Source: a bacterium
GTDB lineage: Bacteria; Patescibacteriota; Patescibacteriia; Patescibacteriales; VMTK01
Length of the DNA: 36,789 nucleotides
Assembly (NCBI GenBank): GCA_030693295.1
Contig: JAUYAT010000033.1
Span: 1-36,789, forward strand
Reading direction: 5' to 3'
Shown: positions 1,592-30,653 of the stretch, piece by piece
Numbering within the stretch: position 1 is the first letter of the stretch
Layout of the letters: each line of letters opens with the position of its first letter
Notes under the pieces: generated by a model
The model's input: only the letters and a program-made list of their open reading frames with translations
Told to the model about the DNA's origin: nothing
Databases searched by the model: none
Made by a program: the position numbers and the translations under genes

Positions 1592-3208
1592 TTAATCCCT
1601 AATCTCTATCTCAATCCTATCGGCTAAATTAGGGACTTTATTTATAAATGAAGGATAAAATTTAATTTCATAATCCGCAATCTCCGGCATATTTTTCAAA
1701 TAAACGTCCAACTGCTCGCGGCTAAGCCCTAATATTTTATCCCTTTCCACGATATCGGCGCCCTCCCGGGCGGTTATTTTGCCGCTAAAGCTCGCATTCA
1801 ACGAAGCGGAGCCCTGATTTATATTATAACCGTTTAAGCCGTAGCTGATATTGTCTTTTCCAAATTCCGCTAATTTTTTGTCATCGGACAAAATTGAATT
1901 CAGCTTTTGCTGAGCCAGCTTAAAAATATCATCTTCATTAAAAGCGACCACTATCACGTTGGTTTTCATAGTGACGGGAAATTCATCTTTTTCTTCGCCT
2001 ACTTTGCCGCCGACTTCCTGGCTGATTGAATTGTTGTCAATATCGTAAATCACCCTGCTATAATCTTTATAATTCTCGCCGATTTCAACTTTGGCTTTTT
2101 CCAGCAAACTCTCTCTTAAATCCTTAACGGCCGTTTCAATATCGGCTTGCTGTATATACTTTTTAACTTTCCGGGAATACTCCATCGGCTCTTTGCTCTC
2201 GCCGTAAATCTTGTCCTGCAAGCCGGCCCAAAGGCCGGGTATGATAAAATGAGCCGCGGCTATTGCCATTTCCGGGTTGACTTCATCAGCGTAAACATCC
2301 GCCTCAACCTGGCCTCCGGCGGGAACGGTAATTGTATTTTTCAATCTGAACAATTTATTGTCCGGCGAAAGAAATCTCGTTGTCGCCACCAGCTGCTGGC
2401 TTCTGTTGTAATTATTGAATACGATGATTTTGCCTTTCACCTCTTCGCCAACCGTTTCAATGCCGCTCCCGGCGTAAGTTTTGCTTTGCTCAATCTCGGC
2501 TTGCTTAACCTCCCCTGTTACGGCGCCGCCGGCCGCTGTTCCCTTGTCTTTATCAAGAATGTCAACAATCAAATTGCTGTTTATGGCTTCCTGCTTGGGC
2601 AAAATGGTTATTGTTACTTTGACAAATGAAAAATAAAAAATCGCGGCTAAAAGCATAACCGTTAGTATGATAAAACTATACGCGATTTTGCGGTAAACGG
2701 CTATTGACCTGTCCTTACCGGCCGTTTTTTCCGCGAGCTCTTTATCAACCGCGTTAACTTTATCAGCTTGCGGCTCTTTAATATTTATTATTTTATTAAC
2801 TTCAAGATTTTTAATCGCTGATAATTCATTTTGCGCATCCGGCGCTTTTTCTTCCTGAGAAATTGACTTTAGCACAATCTCGGCTTTAGTCGCCTCTTTC
2901 GGCTCCGGCGCCGGAGCTTCTTCCGGTTTTTTCTCCGGCATAATCGCGTTTACCCCGTTAGAAAGCCCCAACCCTCGGGTTGGAGATGAGTGTAATCCAG
3001 CTTCTTTATTCTTAGCCCCGCCCTTTCTAACGGGGTTTACGGCTATTACCATTCGTTTAAGCGCCTTGACAGGCGTAATGGCGCCGGCGGGCTGTTTCGG
3101 CTTCGGCGCTTTGGACTGCTTTTTTATTAAAACGGCTTTGCCCGGCTTGGCTGATTTGCGTCCGCCAGCCGGCGGATTGATTTTTTTTACTTTAATTTTA
3201 GTTGGCAT
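1592..3208 (-). CDS. Single-pass membrane protein with baseplate-J-like extracytoplasmic region
   Basis: A 538-residue protein of unknown function. Residues 1-170 are a basic, Pro/Ala-rich, then acidic low-complexity cytoplasmic stretch; one membrane segment lies at about 175-196 (FIILTVMLLAAIFYFSF); the remaining ~340 residues are predicted outside. The outer part has the pattern GKIIVFNNYNRSQQLVATTR ... PGLWAGLQDKIYGES, which I associate with proteins annotated baseplate J/gp47-like in CPR genomes; this is recall of a family pattern, not a search. Residues 57-87 are encoded by a palindromic repeat inserted in frame (see repeat at 2948-3040). It lies between dnaE/IS and thrS on the same strand. 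It could be an envelope or secretion-apparatus component; no catalytic motif is visible. Confidence 0.75.
   Translation of the reverse strand: MPTKIKVKKINPPAGGRKSAKPGKAVLIKKQSKAPKPKQPAGAITPVKALKRMVIAVNPVRKGGAKNKEAGLHSSPTRGLGLSNGVNAIMPEKKPEEAPAPEPKEATKAEIVLKSISQEEKAPDAQNELSAIKNLEVNKIINIKEPQADKVNAVDKELAEKTAGKDRSIAVYRKIAYSFIILTVMLLAAIFYFSFVKVTITILPKQEAINSNLIVDILDKDKGTAAGGAVTGEVKQAEIEQSKTYAGSGIETVGEEVKGKIIVFNNYNRSQQLVATTRFLSPDNKLFRLKNTITVPAGGQVEADVYADEVNPEMAIAAAHFIIPGLWAGLQDKIYGESKEPMEYSRKVKKYIQQADIETAVKDLRESLLEKAKVEIGENYKDYSRVIYDIDNNSISQEVGGKVGEEKDEFPVTMKTNVIVVAFNEDDIFKLAQQKLNSILSDDKKLAEFGKDNISYGLNGYNINQGSASLNASFSGKITAREGADIVERDKILGLSREQLDVYLKNMPEIADYEIKFYPSFINKVPNLADRIEIEIRD
2948..3040. repeat. 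Palindromic repeat inside a coding region
   Basis: Outer arms ACCCCGTTAGAAAG (2952-2965) and CTTTCTAACGGGGT (3023-3036) are perfect inverted repeats, with an inner hairpin CCAACCC/GGGTTGG at 2968-2983. The element adds about 30 in-frame residues to the low-complexity N-terminal region of the 538-residue membrane protein. Confidence 0.8.
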
Positions 3209-4349: not shown

Positions 4350-4365
4350 GCTATTCGTCTAATTT
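4350..4365. repeat. Target-site duplication, right copy
   Basis: Identical 16 bp to 3277-3292. This copy supplies the actual last codons (KLDE) and the TAG stop (4351-4353) of dnaE, so the insertion left the polymerase gene intact. Confidence 0.9.
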
Positions 4366-7300
4366 GCTTAATAAACGATTAATTTCTTTAATTAAAGATT
4401 CGCAAGGGTTAACTTTAAAATCTGTTTCAATATTTGAAGATTTAATTTTAAAATAAACTTTTTTATCGCCCTGATGTTTCGTCAACAACTCTTTTAATTC
4501 GCTTAAAATATCGGGATTATAATTTTTATTCAGCGCGATATATAAATTTGTCTCGTCTGTTAAAACCGCTGAATTTAATTTTGCGAAATTTTTCTTTATC
4601 GCGTTATTTACAATTCCGTTTTCTTTTTTAAATTTAATTATCGCTTGCTCAACATTTTCTAAAGTGAGTTCAATCGCCTTGTTGCATAATAATTTGATTT
4701 CATGGTCTTTATCCGACAGCTTGCCTCGGCAAAGAACCGCTTCGCCTTCACGCCAGATTGCCGCTGTTTCTTTAAGCAGAGACGGAAAAACCAATATTTC
4801 CATGCCGCCGGATAAATCTTCAATTTTAACGAAAAGCATAGGTTCATTGGCGCGGGTCATTATTTTTTGTATCTTTGTTATGATGCCGGCGATATCAACT
4901 TGGTCCTGGTTAAGATGGGCGCGGCATTCCGCTATTGCGGCAACCTTGCCGCTTAAATATTTTTTGTAATCAACGAAGGGATGCTCGGTAATGTAAAGCC
5001 CGAGCAATTCTTTTTCCCATGCCAGCTTTTCCCGGCGGTTCGCCGGCGCGCATTGCTCCAATTTTATTTTATTATCCATCTTCAAGCCGGGAGCATCGGC
5101 AAAAAGGCTGACTTGGCCGTTGTCGCGGCTTTTGTTTATGCCTTTATTGAACTTGAGCAAATTATCCATATTGCCAAGCAATCGCCCACGTTCGCCGAAT
5201 TGGTCAAAACTGCCGCATTTAATTAAGCTTTCCAATGATTTTTTGTTTAAATCCTTGTCATTGACTCGCTCCAAAAAATCGGTTATGTCTTGATAGGGCC
5301 CGTTTTTCTTACGCTCCTTGATTATCACGTCAACAATATTATTGCCGATATTTTTAACGGCCTTGAGCCCGAAGCGGATGGTATTGGCTTTTTCATCCCG
5401 GCTGACGATTTTATTTTTAACCGTGCCGCTGGTGATAACGGTAAACGAAGCGAATGATTGGTTTATGTTAGGAGGAAGAACTTCAATGCCCATATAGCGG
5501 CATTCTTCTATTTCAATGGCGATTCTGTCTATATTTTCCTGGTCGCTGGTTAAAAGAGCCGCCATAAATTCAGTCGGCCAATTGGCTTTTAAATACGCGG
5601 TCTGATAGCCGATTAAGGCGTAGCAGGCGCCATGGCTTCTGTTAAATCCATAGCCGGCGAACGGCTCAATAAACGAGAATATTTTTTCAGCCAGCTGGCT
5701 GGCAATTCCGTTTTTAACGCAGCCGTCAATGAATTTTTCTTTTTGCTCCGACAAAAGCTTGGGAATTTTCTTTCCCACGGCTTTTCTTAACACATCGGCT
5801 TCAGCCATGGAAAAGCCGGCTAACGCCCGCGCCATCTGCATAACCTGTTCCTGATAAATCGCCACGCCGTAAGTTTTGGACAAAATCGGCTCCAGCTTCG
5901 GATGCAGATATTGCGGCTTTTTCCTGCCCTGCTTGCCGGCGATATAATTCGGTATCCATTCCATCGGCCCCGGACGATACAATGACACCATGGCGATTAT
6001 ATCCTCAAATTCAGTCGGCTTGAGCTCGCGCAAATAGCGCTTCATGCCGCTGCTATTATGCGCGACAAACCCGTTTGCGATAAAATTATTGCCTGGCGAT
6101 TGCATAGCAATATCATAAGTCATTTCTTTGCCGCTATATTCAATTTTCTTAATTTTAACAAAATAAAAATTTTCTGGAATTTTGGGACATTCCCAATTAA
6201 TTAATTTTTTATACTTTAAAGCAAACTCGGAAAATTTCGTAGAGCTGATTAAAACAAAATTATATTGAGGATATTGTTCTTGAAATAAATCTATTTTTTC
6301 TTTATCTAAGTCATGCAGCCATCCTTTAATTTCATAATAAGTATTATTTGATTCTGTATAAAAATCAGGGGTGTAATGTAAAATATTCCCGTTAGGCCTT
6401 CTTAATTCAAATGTTTCCGGCTCATATTGATATTCTAAATTATGCAATTTTAATATCCTGGCGAAATCAGCCTCCCATGTGGAACGCACATAATGCCCCA
6501 AGTCTTTTCTAAATCCTCCTTTTCTATGCGGAGAGGGCTTGCCAAACATGGGATTGCCGGCTCCTCTGAATTTTTCAGATAATGCTGTTTTTCTCTTTTC
6601 CGCTTCTTCTTTGCCATAAAAATCTTCAAAAGTTCTGCCTGAGAGAGCCTTGGATATTTTCTGGCCCATTTCTTTTACTCTTTTTGAATTTTCAATATTT
6701 AATCCTTGATTCCATGGCTTGCCGCCGCTTTGATAAAACTTAATTCTAGCTGCTTTAATTTTTTCTCTTGATTCTTTTTTACTTGGATTGCTGTAAAATC
6801 GCGCCGAGCATCTATAACAAAAATCGCTTTTGCCTTCTTTTTGCCCGTTTATTTGTTTCCCGCATTTTTGGCATGTGTTATAAAATAAATGCTTTGCCTT
6901 GGCTTTTATTAAAATTTTATCTCCCCGTTTTAAATCCCCCAGCGTCTTCCAGCCGTTATCAGTTAAAAACTGATGTTTTTTTGTGGCCTTAATGTGCCAA
7001 TTATTTTCCGCTATTAAATTATAAACTTCTTTTTCCCCGCTTTTGATAACTTTTATTATTTTATTTTTATGGACTTTGCCGTCATTAACATAAACGGATA
7101 ATAATTTTTCTTTCAAATGCTTATTTTCATACAATTTTTTTATGGTTGTATTGGATATTATTGTATCTCCTGACAAACATTCCAATTGAAAAATTCCGGT
7201 TGTTTCCCCGTCTTGCAATAATTTATACGCCCCTTTGTCGTCCAAAGGGATTTTATCAATATTAATTTCCAATCCGCGCGTATTTTTTATAATCTTTATG

Positions 7301-9066
7301 GCGGATTCAATGATGGTTAAATTTTTCAATCCCAAAAAATCCATTTTTAAAAGCCCCAAATCTTCCACCGGATGCAGGCTGTATTGCGAAACAATCGTCC
7401 TGTCTGACGAAGAAGCGTATTGCAGAGGCACATAATTAGTCAGGGGATTTTTAGTGATTAGGACGCCGCAGGCGTGCGTTGAAGCGTGCCGCGCCACTCC
7501 CTCAAGGCGCTTGGCGTAATCAATAATTTTGCGCGCCGCTTCTTCCGTTCTGTAAATTTCTTTTAATTCGCCGACAATTTCCAGCGCCTGTTTAATTTTT
7601 GAAAACATCGGTATCATCTTGGCCAGCTTGTCGCAATAATCATAAGGGTAGTCAAGCGCTCTGCCGACATCTCTTATCGCCGCCCGCGCCGCCATAGTGC
7701 CGAAAGTGATGATCTGCGCCACGTGGTCTTGGCCGTATTTTTCCTCAACATAGCGGATTACTTCGTCGCGCCTGATATCGGCGAAATCCAAGTCAATGTC
7801 AGGCATGGAAATGCGGTCCGGATTTAAAAAGCGCTCAAACAATAAATCATATTCCAACGGGTCAAGATTGGTTATGCCAGCCAAGTAAGAAACAAAGGAG
7901 CCGGCGGCGCTGCCGCGCCCGGGCCCCACCACGATATTGTTATTTTTAGCCCAATTGACAAAATCAGCCACGATTAAAAAGTACGGCGAAAAGCCCATTT
8001 TCTTTATTACGGACAATTCATAATTCAATCTTTCCAATTTTTGCCGCAAAATTTCGCCATCACTATTTTTTTCTCCGCTCTCTTCATTTTTCGCGAACTC
8101 CTGGTATGATTTAATTATTTTTTCTTTGTCATAGCCATACCTCTTGGCCATGCCTTCCAGGCACAGCTCTGTAAGATATTCATCCGCGCTTTTGCCGCCG
8201 GGCACCTGGAAAGAAGGCAGATGAGTCTGTCCCAGCTCTATCTCCAAATTGCATTCGCCGGCGATCTTAACGGTATTTTCTATGGCCTGCGGCGTGTCTT
8301 TAAAAGTTTTTGTCATCTCGCCGGTGGAGCGGAAAGAATAATTTTCCCCCACCATGCTCATTCTGTCGCGATCCTCTTTTTTCTTTTTGGTCTGCAAGCA
8401 TAACAGCACGTCCTGCGCTTCGTCATCATCTTTATTTAAATAATGAACGTCATTGGTCGCGACTAATGGCGCGCCAGATTCTTTTGAAAGCTGTATCAAT
8501 TTTTTGTTCACCTCGGCCTGATGCTCCAAATTCGGATGATCCTGCAATTCAAGATAAAAATTCTCTTTGCCGAAAAGCTCTTGATATTCCGAAATTCTTT
8601 TTTTCGCTTTGTCCATCTTCCCGGCGACAATCAGTCTGGGAATTTCCCCGGCCAGACAGGCCGACATGGCGATGAGCCCCTGGCAATGTTCTTTTAAAAC
8701 TTCCCAATCAACGCGCGGCTTATAGTAAAACCCTTCCATGTGGGCGATTGAAGTAAGTTTGATTAAATTATTATATCCTTCGTTATTTTTCGCCAAGAGC
8801 ACGAGATGATAATTTTTTTCATCTGATCTCGTATTTTTATCAAGCCGCGAACCCGGAGCCAAATACGCTTCAACCCCGATAATCGGCTTAATGCCCGCCT
8901 TTTTGCATTTTTGGTAAAATTCAATAACCCCATACATTACGCCATGGTCGGTTAAGGCCAGGGCTTCGGCCCCGTCTTCTTTGGCGCGGTTAACCAGATC
9001 GTCAATTTTGGCGAGTCCGTCAAGCAGAGAATAATGGCTATGGACATGGAGATGGACGAATTTCAT
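4351..9066 (-). CDS. dnaE: DNA polymerase III alpha subunit, intein-containing precursor
   Basis: The replicative polymerase catalytic subunit, made as a precursor of about 1571 residues; after removal of a 375-residue intein the mature protein is about 1196, normal for DnaE. The N-terminal PHP domain is marked by HLHVHSHYSLLDG. The polymerase active-site motif is PDIDLDF, preceded by GPGRGSAAGSF; KMDFLGL precedes the intein; RPGPM and GYGFNRSHGACYALIGYQTAYLKA-type finger motifs follow it. A C-terminal OB fold lies around VDIAGIITKIQ. I choose ATG at 9064-9066 because DnaE proteins usually begin directly with the FVHLHVHS strand; an in-frame TTG lies four codons upstream. The intein splits the conserved FQLE/SSGM motif. 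The stop codon lies inside the IS target duplication. A promoter is visible just upstream. Confidence 0.97.
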   Translation of the reverse strand: MKFVHLHVHSHYSLLDGLAKIDDLVNRAKEDGAEALALTDHGVMYGVIEFYQKCKKAGIKPIIGVEAYLAPGSRLDKNTRSDEKNYHLVLLAKNNEGYNNLIKLTSIAHMEGFYYKPRVDWEVLKEHCQGLIAMSACLAGEIPRLIVAGKMDKAKKRISEYQELFGKENFYLELQDHPNLEHQAEVNKKLIQLSKESGAPLVATNDVHYLNKDDDEAQDVLLCLQTKKKKEDRDRMSMVGENYSFRSTGEMTKTFKDTPQAIENTVKIAGECNLEIELGQTHLPSFQVPGGKSADEYLTELCLEGMAKRYGYDKEKIIKSYQEFAKNEESGEKNSDGEILRQKLERLNYELSVIKKMGFSPYFLIVADFVNWAKNNNIVVGPGRGSAAGSFVSYLAGITNLDPLEYDLLFERFLNPDRISMPDIDLDFADIRRDEVIRYVEEKYGQDHVAQIITFGTMAARAAIRDVGRALDYPYDYCDKLAKMIPMFSKIKQALEIVGELKEIYRTEEAARKIIDYAKRLEGVARHASTHACGVLITKNPLTNYVPLQYASSSDRTIVSQYSLHPVEDLGLLKMDFLGLKNLTIIESAIKIIKNTRGLEINIDKIPLDDKGAYKLLQDGETTGIFQLECLSGDTIISNTTIKKLYENKHLKEKLLSVYVNDGKVHKNKIIKVIKSGEKEVYNLIAENNWHIKATKKHQFLTDNGWKTLGDLKRGDKILIKAKAKHLFYNTCQKCGKQINGQKEGKSDFCYRCSARFYSNPSKKESREKIKAARIKFYQSGGKPWNQGLNIENSKRVKEMGQKISKALSGRTFEDFYGKEEAEKRKTALSEKFRGAGNPMFGKPSPHRKGGFRKDLGHYVRSTWEADFARILKLHNLEYQYEPETFELRRPNGNILHYTPDFYTESNNTYYEIKGWLHDLDKEKIDLFQEQYPQYNFVLISSTKFSEFALKYKKLINWECPKIPENFYFVKIKKIEYSGKEMTYDIAMQSPGNNFIANGFVAHNSSGMKRYLRELKPTEFEDIIAMVSLYRPGPMEWIPNYIAGKQGRKKPQYLHPKLEPILSKTYGVAIYQEQVMQMARALAGFSMAEADVLRKAVGKKIPKLLSEQKEKFIDGCVKNGIASQLAEKIFSFIEPFAGYGFNRSHGACYALIGYQTAYLKANWPTEFMAALLTSDQENIDRIAIEIEECRYMGIEVLPPNINQSFASFTVITSGTVKNKIVSRDEKANTIRFGLKAVKNIGNNIVDVIIKERKKNGPYQDITDFLERVNDKDLNKKSLESLIKCGSFDQFGERGRLLGNMDNLLKFNKGINKSRDNGQVSLFADAPGLKMDNKIKLEQCAPANRREKLAWEKELLGLYITEHPFVDYKKYLSGKVAAIAECRAHLNQDQVDIAGIITKIQKIMTRANEPMLFVKIEDLSGGMEILVFPSLLKETAAIWREGEAVLCRGKLSDKDHEIKLLCNKAIELTLENVEQAIIKFKKENGIVNNAIKKNFAKLNSAVLTDETNLYIALNKNYNPDILSELKELLTKHQGDKKVYFKIKSSNIETDFKVNPCESLIKEINRLLSKLDE
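6055..7179 (-). other. DnaE intein with PD-(D/E)XK-type homing endonuclease
   Basis: A 375-residue in-frame intein. Splicing residues: Cys1 (block A, CLSGDTII), block B with T66-x-x-H69 (IKATKKHQF), block F/G YDIAMQSPGNNFIANGF ending VAHN with His374 and Asn375, followed by Ser as +1 residue. Between the HINT halves lie a four-cysteine zinc knuckle (C103, C106, C121, C124), a NUMOD3-like segment with GNPMFGK (about 208-214), and a nuclease-like domain with WEADF (E236), YTPDF (D272) and YYEIKG (E283-x-K285). The last three resemble a PD-(D/E)XK active site; no LAGLIDADG motif is seen. All splicing residues are present, so it should be active. Domain naming is by motif only. Confidence 0.93.
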
Positions 9067-9098
9067 TGTTTTAGGCAATTAGAAAATATTACTAATAT

Positions 9099-11500: not shown

Positions 11501-12379
11501 TTACCGCCTCACTTTCTCCATAATTTCCCCCAGTTCGTCATCGCGGTAAAAATCAATTATAATCTGGCCTCCTTTGCCTTTGCGCCTGATTTCAACTTTG
11601 GCGCCGAAAAAATCGCGCAAAGTTTCTTCCTTATCCCTGTCTTCGTAATTAATTTTTATCCGCGCCGCCTTAGTTCCGCCCATGGTCCGCGCTTCCTTGA
11701 TTGAAGCGCCCACCGTCAAGCCGCCGCGGATTATCTTTTTAAACAAGGCCGATTGCCTGTTTTCCGAATCCAAACCGGCTATTAATTTCGCGTGGCCTTC
11801 CGTAATCTTCCCCTCTATCAGCGCCTGCCGGATTTCCTCCGGCAGATTAAGCACGCGCAAAATGTTTGACACGGAAGAGCGCGCCTTGCCGACCCGTTTC
11901 GCCAATTCTTCCTGGGTTAAATTAAATTCGTCAATCAAACGGCGAAAAGCCGCGGCCTGTTCAACCGCGTTAAGATCTTCGCGCTGAATGTTTTCAATTA
12001 AAGCCATCTCCAGCTTTTCCTGCTCCTCGGCATCGCGCGCGATCGCCGGCACTTTATCCAGGCCGATAATTTTAGCCGCCCTTAAGCGCCTTTCGCCGGC
12101 GATTAATTCAAACCGATCGCCTTTTTGGCTGACGATTATGGGTTGAATTATGCCGTATTGCTTAATTGATTCAACCAGCTCTTCCATCGGCTGATGGGCG
12201 AAGTCTTTTCTCGGCTGCATCGGATTATTACTTATCAAATCAGGCGAAATCTGCAAAATTCTGCTTTTATCCGCTGCGGCCGCCGCCCCGCCCTGCGCGA
12301 AAGGCGGAACGGTTTCAACGGTTTTATTTACTTTTTTAGGAATTAAGGAGCTAAGCCCCCTGCCGAGTCCGTTAGACAT
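11501..12379 (-). CDS. parB: Chromosome-partitioning protein ParB (Spo0J family)
   Basis: A 292-residue DNA-binding CTPase that loads at parS sites and works with ParA in chromosome segregation. The start MSNGLGRGLSSLIPKK is typical. The N-terminal ParB/Sulfiredoxin-like domain has NPMQPRKDF and the GERRLRAAK motif (CTP-binding region); the helix-turn-helix is in the middle (LTQEELAKRVGKARSSVSNILRVLNLP), followed by ITEGHAKLIAGL. A short C-terminal dimerisation region ends GEIMEKVRR. It lies 35 nt after parA in the same operon. I see no parS site (TGTTNCACGTGAAACA) in the window. Confidence 0.97.
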   Translation of the reverse strand: MSNGLGRGLSSLIPKKVNKTVETVPPFAQGGAAAAADKSRILQISPDLISNNPMQPRKDFAHQPMEELVESIKQYGIIQPIIVSQKGDRFELIAGERRLRAAKIIGLDKVPAIARDAEEQEKLEMALIENIQREDLNAVEQAAAFRRLIDEFNLTQEELAKRVGKARSSVSNILRVLNLPEEIRQALIEGKITEGHAKLIAGLDSENRQSALFKKIIRGGLTVGASIKEARTMGGTKAARIKINYEDRDKEETLRDFFGAKVEIRRKGKGGQIIIDFYRDDELGEIMEKVRR

Positions 12380-20801: not shown

Positions 20802-20895
20802 ACCTCACCTGTCCTCTCCTTGTGAAGGAGAGGAACTATCTAAAAACATTTTGCCTATCTCCCTCTCCTTCGCAAGGAGAGGGCTGGGGTGAGGT
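20802..20895. repeat. Palindromic repeat, intergenic copy of the CCTCTCC family
   Basis: Outer arms ACCTCACC (20802-20809) and GGTGAGGT (20888-20895) and two inner CCTCTCCTT/AAGGAGAGG hairpins; the 23 bp at 20861-20883 are identical to 29076-29098 (metG) and 30308-30330 (rsmI). It lies between the 93-residue gene and the end of atpG. Confidence 0.85.
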
Positions 20896-20905
20896 CTTGA
20901 AGCAC

Positions 20906-28207: not shown

Positions 28208-29839
28208 TTAAATTCTTGGAAATAATACTTCACTTTTCTTAACTTTTGTATCAGCCGCCAATCCGCCCCACTTAACAGCTTCGTTAAAATCCTTTTTCAT
28301 CTCTTCGGCAGGCGCTAATCCCAATTGCCGCCAAATTTTCTCCGCCGTCTCCGGCATAAACGGCCAAACCATCCAAGCGACAATTCTCAACCTCTCTAAT
28401 ATATTATACATTATTTTCCCAACTTTTTCATCACCATTTTTAATCATCTCCCAAGGCTTATTTTCAGTAATATAATTATCCAAAAATTTAATTTCACCAT
28501 TGATAATATCAATCGCTTTATCTATTCCCGAATTGGCGACTTCATTTTTGTACTTAACTAAACTATGCTTAATTTTGCATTTTAAATTGCCTGCCCGCAA
28601 TGCTTCGCTTGCGATAGCAGGCGGGTCATTTTGATTTTTTGCGCCAGAGGCGCATCCGCCTTGGGCGGAGATTTTTTCATTTTGCATTTTATCCGCCAAC
28701 GCCACCGATCTCGCAACCAAATTCCCGATTCCGTTCGCCAAATCGGCATTGTATTTTTCATCAAACCATTGCCAGCTAATATCGCCGTCATGGCCGAAAG
28801 GCGTGGCGCTCATCAATAAATACCTCGCTCCGTCAACGCCGTATTTATCTATCAAATCCCTCGGCGCTATCACGTTGCCCAGCGACTTGCTCATTTTTTT
28901 GCCGCCAACCAGAAAAAATCCGTGGATAAAAAGCTGCTTTGGCAAGGGCAGGTTTAACGCCAAAAGCATTGCCGGCCAGATTGTGGCGTGAACCCGCAAA
29001 ATATCTTTGCCTATCAACTGAACATCCGGCGGCCACATGCCCCCCTTCGCAAGGGGGGTTAGGGGGGATGTAGCTCCCTCTCCTTCGCAAGGAGAGGGCC
29101 GGGGTGAGGTCGGACCGTCCCATCCCAGCCCGGTTAAATAATTTAAAAACGCTTCCAGCCAGACATAAACAGTATGTTTTTTATCCCACGGCAATTCAAT
29201 CCCCCACTTCACGTTTTTTCTTGAGCAAGAAATATCGCTTAAAGGGTTATTTTTCAAAAAGCTTACAATTTCGTTTTTCCTTTCCGCCGGCCTGACTAAT
29301 AATTCGTCTTTTTTTATCAGCTCTAAAATCCTATCCTGAAAAGCCGACAGCTTGAACATATAGCACTCTTCTTTCATTTTCTGCGGCTCGGTGCCGTGGT
29401 CCGGGCATTTGCCGCCGATCAGCTCTTTTTCCGTTTTATACTGCTCGCATCCCGCGCAATACAGGCCTTCATACTCGCCCTTGTAAATAAAGCCCTTATC
29501 GTATAAATATTGCATCGCGTTCTGCGCCGCTTTGATATGATTTTCATCCGTGGTGCGAATAAACTTATCATGTGAAATATCCAGCTCGTCCCAAGCCAGC
29601 TCAAATTTAGCCGCCAATTCATCAACGAATTCTTTCGGATTTTTGCCGGCTTCCGCCGCCGCTTTCTCAATCTTGGCGCCATGCTCGTCCGTGCCGGTTA
29701 GGAAAAAAGTTTTCTCGCCGATCATCCGATGGTAGCGCGCCAAAACATCAGCCGCGACAGTGGTATAGGCGCTGCCGATATGCGGAATGTCGTTGACGTA
29801 GTAAATCGGGGTGGTTATGTAAAATTTTTTTTCTTTCAT
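28208..29839 (-). CDS. metG: Methionyl-tRNA synthetase with two in-frame palindromic insertions
   Basis: Charges tRNA-Met; 543 residues. Class I motifs: PHIGSAYTT (HIGH) at 19-27 and KMSKSLG at about 315. The zinc knuckle has CAGCEQYKTEKELIGGKCPDHG. The anticodon-binding domain follows (NYITENKPWEM, WMVWPFMPETAEKIWRQLG). Two stretches look foreign: residues ~244-267 (TSPRPSPCEGEG...) encoded by a CCTCTCC-family palindrome, before WPPDVQLIGKD, and residues ~387-417 (GGCASGAKNQNDPPAI...) encoded by another set of palindromes in a linker. Both keep the frame. Ten nt after rsmI. Confidence 0.96.
   Translation of the reverse strand: MKEKKFYITTPIYYVNDIPHIGSAYTTVAADVLARYHRMIGEKTFFLTGTDEHGAKIEKAAAEAGKNPKEFVDELAAKFELAWDELDISHDKFIRTTDENHIKAAQNAMQYLYDKGFIYKGEYEGLYCAGCEQYKTEKELIGGKCPDHGTEPQKMKEECYMFKLSAFQDRILELIKKDELLVRPAERKNEIVSFLKNNPLSDISCSRKNVKWGIELPWDKKHTVYVWLEAFLNYLTGLGWDGPTSPRPSPCEGEGATSPLTPLAKGGMWPPDVQLIGKDILRVHATIWPAMLLALNLPLPKQLFIHGFFLVGGKKMSKSLGNVIAPRDLIDKYGVDGARYLLMSATPFGHDGDISWQWFDEKYNADLANGIGNLVARSVALADKMQNEKISAQGGCASGAKNQNDPPAIASEALRAGNLKCKIKHSLVKYKNEVANSGIDKAIDIINGEIKFLDNYITENKPWEMIKNGDEKVGKIMYNILERLRIVAWMVWPFMPETAEKIWRQLGLAPAEEMKKDFNEAVKWGGLAADTKVKKSEVLFPRI
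28589..28680. repeat. Palindrome cluster inside metG (anticodon-domain side)
   Basis: GCCTGC (28589-28594)/GCAGGC (28617-28622), then GCGCC/GGCGC and CCGCC/GGCGG short stems. The segment adds about 30 in-frame residues not expected in MetG. Confidence 0.7.
29040..29111. repeat. CCTCTCC-family palindromic repeat inside metG
   Basis: Two hairpins: CCCCCC/GGGGGG (29040-29058) and the 23-bp unit 29076-29098 identical to 20861-20883 and 30308-30330; the following GGCCGGGGTGAGGTC tail is also shared with rsmI. Confidence 0.9.
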
Positions 29840-29849
29840 ACTTTTTATT

Positions 29850-30653
29850 TTATTTTCCGATAATCACCACGAACTCGCCCTTTTGCGCGTTCGGATCTGA
29901 TTTTATTTTTTCAATAATGCTTTTTAATTCTCCCCTGTAAACCGTTTCGTGCATTTTAGAAATCTCTCGGCAGACAACAACGGATGTAAAATTAATTTTT
30001 TTATTTTTAATATTTGTTTTTGGTATTTGGTATTTGGTATTTGGTATTTTTTCATCATCCTCCCTTATTGAGCATTTTCGCGCCTCCCTGCCCATCTTTT
30101 CCAATTCTTCCAGTAGTTTTATTATTCTGTGCTTAGATTCATAAACCACTACCGGCCACTCGCTCTCCAAAATCTTCGCTAAAAATGTCTGCCTGCCTTT
30201 TTTATGCGGCGGAAATCCCATAAAAACGAATTTGTCTGTCCGGATGCCGGAGATGGATAGCGCGGCCGTTACCGCCGACGGCCCGGGCACGGATTCAATC
30301 TTTACCTCCCTCTCCTTCGCAAGGAGAGGGCCGGGGTGAGGTCTGTCGCCGAATTTTTCAATCACCGACTGGATTAATTTGCCCCCGGGGTCGGAAATCC
30401 CCGGCGTGCCGGCGTCCGTAACCAAGGCCAAATCTTTGCCTCCTTCCAGCAAACTTAAAACATAATCAATCTTTTTCAAATCGGAATGCTGATGGTAAGA
30501 AATCATCGGAGTCTTGATTTTATAATGATTAAGCAGTTTTCTTGTCACTCTGGTATCCTCGCACAAAATAAAATCAACCTCGCCCAAAACGCGAAGCGCC
30601 CTCAACGAAATATCTTCTAAATTGCCGATTGGGGTGGCTACTATATAAAGCAT
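29850..30653 (-). CDS. rsmI: 16S rRNA (cytidine-2'-O)-methyltransferase RsmI, with insertions
   Basis: Tetrapyrrole-methylase-fold enzyme that 2'-O-methylates C1402 of 16S rRNA; 267 residues. Visible motifs: LYIVATPIGNLEDISLRAL, CEDTRVTRKLLNHY, LVTDAGTPGISDPGGKLI, SVPGPSAVTAALSISG and FMGFPPHKKGR. Residues ~104-116 (RPHPGPLLAKERE) are encoded by a CCTCTCC palindrome; residues ~203-217 (KIPNTKYQIPKTNIKNK) by a four-fold heptamer repeat. The C-terminal MHETVYRGELKSIIE is normal. 12 nt after the unknown membrane protein gene. Confidence 0.95.
   Translation of the reverse strand: MLYIVATPIGNLEDISLRALRVLGEVDFILCEDTRVTRKLLNHYKIKTPMISYHQHSDLKKIDYVLSLLEGGKDLALVTDAGTPGISDPGGKLIQSVIEKFGDRPHPGPLLAKEREVKIESVPGPSAVTAALSISGIRTDKFVFMGFPPHKKGRQTFLAKILESEWPVVVYESKHRIIKLLEELEKMGREARKCSIREDDEKIPNTKYQIPKTNIKNKKINFTSVVVCREISKMHETVYRGELKSIIEKIKSDPNAQKGEFVVIIGK
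30019..30046. repeat. Four tandem TTTGGTA heptamers inside rsmI
   Basis: Four exact 7-bp copies. Since 7 is not a multiple of 3, gain or loss of one copy would shift the reading frame of the last ~65 residues. Confidence 0.9.
30308..30343. repeat. CCTCTCC-family palindromic repeat inside rsmI
   Basis: 36 bp identical to 29076-29111 in metG, read in a different frame. Confidence 0.9.

Follow-up and report, generated by a model that had tools for sequence, protein, structure and literature searches.

The repeat shared by rsmI and metG is a REP-like palindromic element of about 37 bp, consisting of a hairpin (CCCTCTCCTT-nnn-AAGGAGAGGG) followed by a tail (nnGGGGTGAGGT). It is probably a selfish, non-autonomous mobile element whose copies are filtered by the survival of the host reading frame. 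The window, that is, the whole stretch of 36,789 nucleotides that was analysed, carried the following element copies and host genes.

28208–29839, minus strand: host gene metG, methionine--tRNA ligase, intact (Pfam, NCBIfam)
29850–30653, minus strand: host gene rsmI, 16S rRNA cytidine(1402)-2'-O-methyltransferase, intact (Pfam, NCBIfam)
30306–30343, plus strand: element copy inside rsmI, hairpin then tail, encoding RPHPGPLLAKERE
30308–30330, fold of a single strand: perfect stem of 10 bp with a loop of 3 nt, CCCTCTCCTT-CGC-AAGGAGAGGG
30331–30343, plus strand: unpaired tail ccGGGGTGAGGTC, conserved through GAGGT and little beyond
29074–29111, plus strand: identical copy inside metG, read in another frame, TSPRPSPCEGEG
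29040–29069, plus strand: a further palindrome in metG, built on the same plan, CCCCCCTT-CGC-AAGGGGGG plus tail TTAGGGGGGAT, adjoining the first
20859–20896, plus strand: third copy with 1 mismatch, intergenic, about 10 bp past the atpG 3' end
20802–20834, minus strand: degenerate inverse copy AACCTCACC-tg-TCCTCTCCTT-GTG-AAGGAGAGGA, forming an inverted pair with 20859–20896, tails outward

The 36-bp identity between 30308–30343 and 29076–29111 described in the earlier note was confirmed and found to extend to 38 bp (30306–30343 and 29074–29111), and the peptides given there for the repeat, TSPRPSPCEGEG in MetG and RPHPGPLLAKERE in RsmI, are correct and correspond to two different frames. Dinucleotide-preserving shuffles of the window produced no match to the repeat, even when up to 3 mismatches were allowed. 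Since the hairpin-then-tail order lies on the plus strand and rsmI on the minus strand, the rsmI coding strand reads its copy tail-first. Folded as single-strand DNA, the two strands of the hairpin gave −10.7 and −11.1 kcal/mol (z −2.1 and −3.3). The general plan of the element is a perfect hairpin, a 2-base linker and then the tail GGGGTGAGGT; the stems are kept, the loop and linker vary among copies and the orientation of the loop relative to the tail can be inverted. Conservation stops on the right after GAGGT and on the left just before CCCTC. In 127 copies from Patescibacteria the element ended in GGGGTGAGGT(Y), with the following T present in 97%; the search pattern itself fixes GGGTGAGG, while the T after it is free. 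No clear target-site consensus was found in the columns outside the element.

Other features of the window were also recorded. The second metG palindrome is read in frame as TSPLTPLAKGG and, judging from its letters, the PPFAQGG of the ParB N-terminus VPPFAQGG (parB, 12250–12310) resembles a remnant of this second family (CCCCCCTTCGCAAGGGGGG plus TTAGGGGGGAT). A third, larger palindrome lies at 2947–3041, with arms CGTTTACCCCGTTAGAAAG and 57 nt between them; it is in frame as NPVRKGGAKNKEAGLHSSPTRGLGLSNGVNA in the ORF at 1592–3208 and its core is present at three more places of the genome. Finally, the dnaE ORF (4351–9078, 1575 aa) contains an apparent intein, from CLSGDTIISN to FVAHN, interrupting the polymerase sequence.

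The strict pattern GGAGAG..GGGTGAGG identified 14 copies in the host genome (G000; 1.06 Mb, 62 contigs), and a reversed-pattern control identified none. With the same pattern, seven more element-bearing genomes of the order carried 4 to 19 copies each, again with a control of 0. A copy was considered genic when it lay inside an ORF of at least 120 aa, and the expectation was obtained from random positions drawn from the same stretches around the copies. Thirteen of the 14 copies in G000 and 12 of the 14 in a second genome of the same family (G001) were genic, where 0.82 was expected; in other genomes of the order the proportion ranged from 3/3 (G012) to 3/16 (G040). Most host genes in G000 are recognisable conserved genes. 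Specifically, NCBIfam identified DNA-3-methyladenine glycosylase, RecG (a 390-aa ORF whose match to the RecG models is confined to their first half), RsmH, MurD, CysRS (twice), a NuoF-like protein and UvrC, in addition to the MetG and RsmI known from the window; one cysS copy, on another contig, was identical over the 34 bp searched. Hosts in G001 included CysRS, IleRS, MetG, PheT, MiaA and DNA-3-methyladenine glycosylase. A related repeat, LTPGPSPATAVAGEG, was seen in frame several times within one gene (G001:C44, L355). We rejected a DNA uptake sequence on account of the roughly 14 copies per Mb and the patchy distribution, and an assembly or adapter artefact on account of the presence of the element in many independent assemblies and in isolates.

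A 34-base pattern with 29 fixed bases matched at least 116 stretches of GTDB genomes from at least 10 phyla, the chance expectation being about 2 × 10−6 matches if base composition is assumed to be uniform. Among the matches listed were Patescibacteria, Cyanobacteria including Gastranaerophilales, Armatimonadota, Nitrospirota, Bacteroidota, Ignavibacteria, Kapabacteria, Zixibacteria, Chloroflexi and Gammaproteobacteria. The element was genic in 35/57 copies from other Patescibacteria, 1/14 from Cyanobacteria, 4/21 from Gastranaerophilales and 0/5 from Gammaproteobacteria; in GC-rich groups such as Armatimonadota, the ORF calls cannot be relied on, because the genic fraction of random positions is 0.99 there. 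Within the host's phylum, 20 of 287 sampled genomes carried the stem-tail pattern. In an Armatimonadota genome with 184 copies (G066), 24 of 25 close pairs were inverted, with a spacing of 43–151 bp, as counted by eye among the listed places. Unlike these, pairs in a Gastranaerophilales genome (G060) were direct, about 90 bp apart and different in their linker bases.

We then considered which enzyme could mobilise the element. One reading is that of an ordinary REP/REPIN system, in which a dedicated REP-associated tyrosine transposase (RAYT) would move it. The hairpin architecture and the inverted close pairs of G066, similar to REP doublets, are consistent with this reading, and the order has RAYT-like Y1 genes (L060 and L071) with REP-type flanking hairpins of their own (CGCCAGAGTCCCTTTCAGGAGACTCTGGCG and ACTCCATGCACAGCATGGAGT). 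However, the GTAG tag was absent. Moreover, Y1_Tnp genes were present in 18 of the approximately 19 element-bearing genomes searched, yet none of about 50 Y1 loci in these 18 genomes was flanked by the element when up to 1.5 kb of flank was inspected, including those of the genomes with 86 and 184 copies. The L071 transposase, which is accompanied by ACTCCATG hairpins of its own, has one degenerate copy at a distance of about 0.5 kb. The proximity of element and transposase in G003 was dismissed as coincidental, as the copy lies inside a methyltransferase gene and a ruvB-like ORF separates it from the transposase. With none of the Y1_Tnp genes checked bracketed by the element, a RAYT/IS200-type carrier was rejected, and mobilisation by a dedicated RAYT is possible but rather unlikely.

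The reading frames in which the element is translated were determined in 83 genic copies from Patescibacteria. On its own, the 38-bp element is open in five of the six frames, the sixth being closed by a TGA in GGGGTGAGG. All five stop-free frames were used and the TGA-closed frame was never used. Sixty-six copies were read tail-first, as TSPQPSPSKGEG (TSP, 31), PHPNPLLSKERE (PHP, 24) or LTPTLSLARRG (LTP, 11), and 17 hairpin-first, as PLLxKERxGVR (PLL, 9) or PSPxxGEGRGEV (PSP, 8). This tail-first excess departed from the 3:2 ratio expected from the open frames (p = 1.3 × 10−4) and the three tail-first frames were unequally used (p = 0.009). The metG and rsmI frames are thus two of the five in use, two survivors that share no conserved peptide. 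Because five of six frames are free of stops and the encoded peptides are short, mostly hydrophilic and rich in proline and glycine, most in-frame insertions can survive. When compared to uninserted homologs, host proteins showed net gains of 9, 10, 12 and 13 aa, the empty sites being too diverged for the exact placement of insertion junctions. A single fixed insertion length was therefore rejected, and no one length accounts for the retention of the frame.

Comparison of homologous hosts showed that the same loops had been hit repeatedly. RsmI of most relatives reads EKF-GED-VKIESVPG without any insert, while G000 carries a net gain of 12 aa there, tail-first, and a genome from another family (G033) carries 10 additional aa in this loop, its element being oriented the other way round, hairpin-first. 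In UvrC, the element follows RRFK in a different frame in each of three genomes (G000, G005 and L261). In DNA-3-methyladenine glycosylase, it follows LLGCFLVR, read hairpin-first in the case of G000, G001 and G040 and tail-first in that of L179 and G022; in the G022 glycosylase (L409), two or more palindromic inserts adjoin each other at a codon that carries a single insert in relatives. RecG and CysRS likewise showed repeated insertion. The CysRS of G000 has its inserts near residues 25 and 359, that of G001 near residues 20 and 209; at least two gains or losses separate the two proteins, and the N-terminal insert is read in a different frame in each. Among 59 homologous host pairs with mapped sites, the inserts were within 12 aa of each other in 25, and in 10 of these 25 the frame or orientation differed. 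Since the same loop in homologous hosts bears different frames and orientations, these insertions were independent; some of the remaining same-site, same-frame pairs may be inherited. According to AlphaFold (30 homologs, mean pLDDT 79.6), residues 105–112 of RsmI have a pLDDT below 50 and lie between a helix (89–102) and a strand (119–122), which places the RsmI insert in a loop predicted to be disordered. The insert segment was absent from the solved RsmI structures.

Altogether, these results favour a selfish palindrome filtered by the survival of its host. Such an element would spread by insertion into the chromosome in either orientation, without an evident target consensus, and in Patescibacteria, chiefly in the host's family, it would hit coding sequence as readily as any other. 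Insertions would be kept when they alter the length by a net multiple of three, introduce no stop and sit in a loop able to accommodate 9–13 extra residues, and the inserts would presumably be neutral for the host protein. As no Y1 gene checked is bracketed by the element, we infer how it moves: a trans-acting, probably HUH-type enzyme would act on a single-stranded hairpin intermediate. Several observations count against this explanation, namely that none of the Y1 loci checked is flanked by the element, that genes are not avoided in the host's family even though most random insertions there should be harmful, the 66:17 tail-first excess and the unequal use of the tail-first frames. The lack of gene avoidance means that plain random insertion plus filtering is not enough to explain the pattern. 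A doubtful extension is that the palindrome in Patescibacteria has become adapted to life in coding sequence and is moved by a new, unlinked enzyme. The five stop-free frames, the tolerated linker peptides and the orientation bias relative to the gene could tentatively be regarded as features of such an adaptation. If this were true, streamlined genomes would keep most of their copies inside essential proteins and re-acquire them at the same loops.

The earlier note had argued from the two open frames that selection acts on the element and not on a peptide. The second part of this argument holds: the element is read in all five open frames and in either orientation, and homologous loops differ in frame, so it is not the peptide that is being preserved. 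The first part is not required, since the spread of a mobile palindrome together with the loss of damaging insertions predicts the same pattern: this process would leave only net lengths that are multiples of three, an unused TGA-closed frame and inserts in disordered loops. Selection on the element would mean that the hairpin is useful at the DNA or mRNA level, as a binding site or through mRNA stability or supercoiling, and is hence maintained in genes. Conserved stems next to a variable loop and linker, together with the orientation bias, agree with this proposal, as does the similarity of same-site, same-frame copies, which exceeds that of their coding flanks (0.78–0.97 versus 0.62–0.86) but is inflated by the search, because copies were found by the element's own sequence. 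This evidence is weak. In addition, the rsmI insert is absent from most relatives, the distribution within the phylum is patchy (20/287 genomes), the roughly 14 copies of a genome sit in unrelated genes, which gives no hint of a common regulation, and the copies of Cyanobacteria and Gammaproteobacteria are almost always outside genes. We consequently regard selection on the element as improbable.

Gene conversion within a conserved peptide, which the earlier note had named as the observation that would overturn its reading, was largely excluded for rsmI, since the G033 insert is oppositely oriented, most relatives have no insert and a cysS copy shares the sequence. More generally, recombination or conversion between genes, or the exchange of element-bearing genes among genomes, is very improbable: the metG and rsmI copies are only 1.2 kb apart and identical over 38 bp, and inheritance or transfer with the gene is possible for the same-site, same-frame copies of the glycosylase (G000, G001 and G040) and MetG (G000 and G001), but one cysS copy, on another contig, matches throughout the 34 bp searched, identity ends at the element boundary and, at homologous sites, the element is found in other frames or inverted.

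The preferred reading, that of a mobile palindrome filtered by host survival, has several implications. Protein-coding palindromes have so far been presented as a peculiarity of Rickettsia, and here one 37-bp family does likewise in many Patescibacteria while being nearly identical across at least 10 phyla. Its copies constitute a natural insertion-scanning data set, in which loops of UvrC, RsmI, RecG, CysRS and DNA-3-methyladenine glycosylase were hit repeatedly in any open frame. They also raise the questions of what mobilises an element that has no linked transposase and why small, streamlined genomes do not avoid genes. For annotation purposes, the motifs TSPQPSPSKGEG, PHPNPLLSKERE and LTPTLSLARRG mark inserts, not domains.

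Among known systems, the Rickettsia palindromic elements (RPE; Ogata et al. 2000, 2002) are the closest in their effect on proteins. As they are summarised in later papers (PMC10969869, PMC3733652), the first RPE were about 150 bp long and are said to encode a conserved peptide. Like RPE, the present palindromes are in frame in unrelated housekeeping genes of known function, with intact and probably functional products. Unlike RPE as described in those summaries, the element is about 37 bp, occurs in many phyla and has neither a single conserved peptide nor a preferred frame, as five frames, unequally used, and both orientations were found. With REPs, whose GTAG and CGTC superfamilies include intragenic members (Di Nocera et al. 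2013, PMC3733652), it shares a 20–40 bp hairpin with an unpaired end, a high copy number, inverted pairs (24 of 25 close pairs in G066 and the window pair at 20802–20896), some intragenic copies and a wide, patchy distribution. REPs inside tRNA synthetase and repair genes have been reported, and recB of two Xanthomonas species carries different REPs at about the same site (PMC3733652). In contrast to REPs, the element ends in GGGGTGAGGT, and neither GTAG nor CGTC formed a consensus at its end or in the columns beyond it in the 127 Patescibacteria copies. Mostly intergenic placement, as in REPs, was observed in Cyanobacteria (1/14 genic), while in the host's family the element is mostly intragenic (13/14 and 12/14). 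As with CGTC REPs, no transposase was seen adjoining it (PMC3733652). It resembles REPIN/RAYT systems in the inverted doublets of the Armatimonadota genome and in its presumed non-autonomous mobility (PMC3116915, PMC2817692), and differs from them in that no RAYT adjoined it at about 50 Y1 loci of 18 genomes. Intragenic MITEs such as ERIC and Coxiella QMITE1 (PMC10969869) are likewise small, non-autonomous and capable of in-frame fusions, but MITEs measure 70–300 bp and have terminal inverted repeats (PMC3733652), whereas this element is a single short hairpin plus tail. The open-licence literature searched yielded no paper that describes palindromes inserted into coding sequence in Patescibacteria, and an earlier description of the exact element may exist. 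When compared to the systems above, the majority-genic placement in the host's family, the occurrence in all open frames, the recurrence at the same sites across families and the cross-phylum identity are new.
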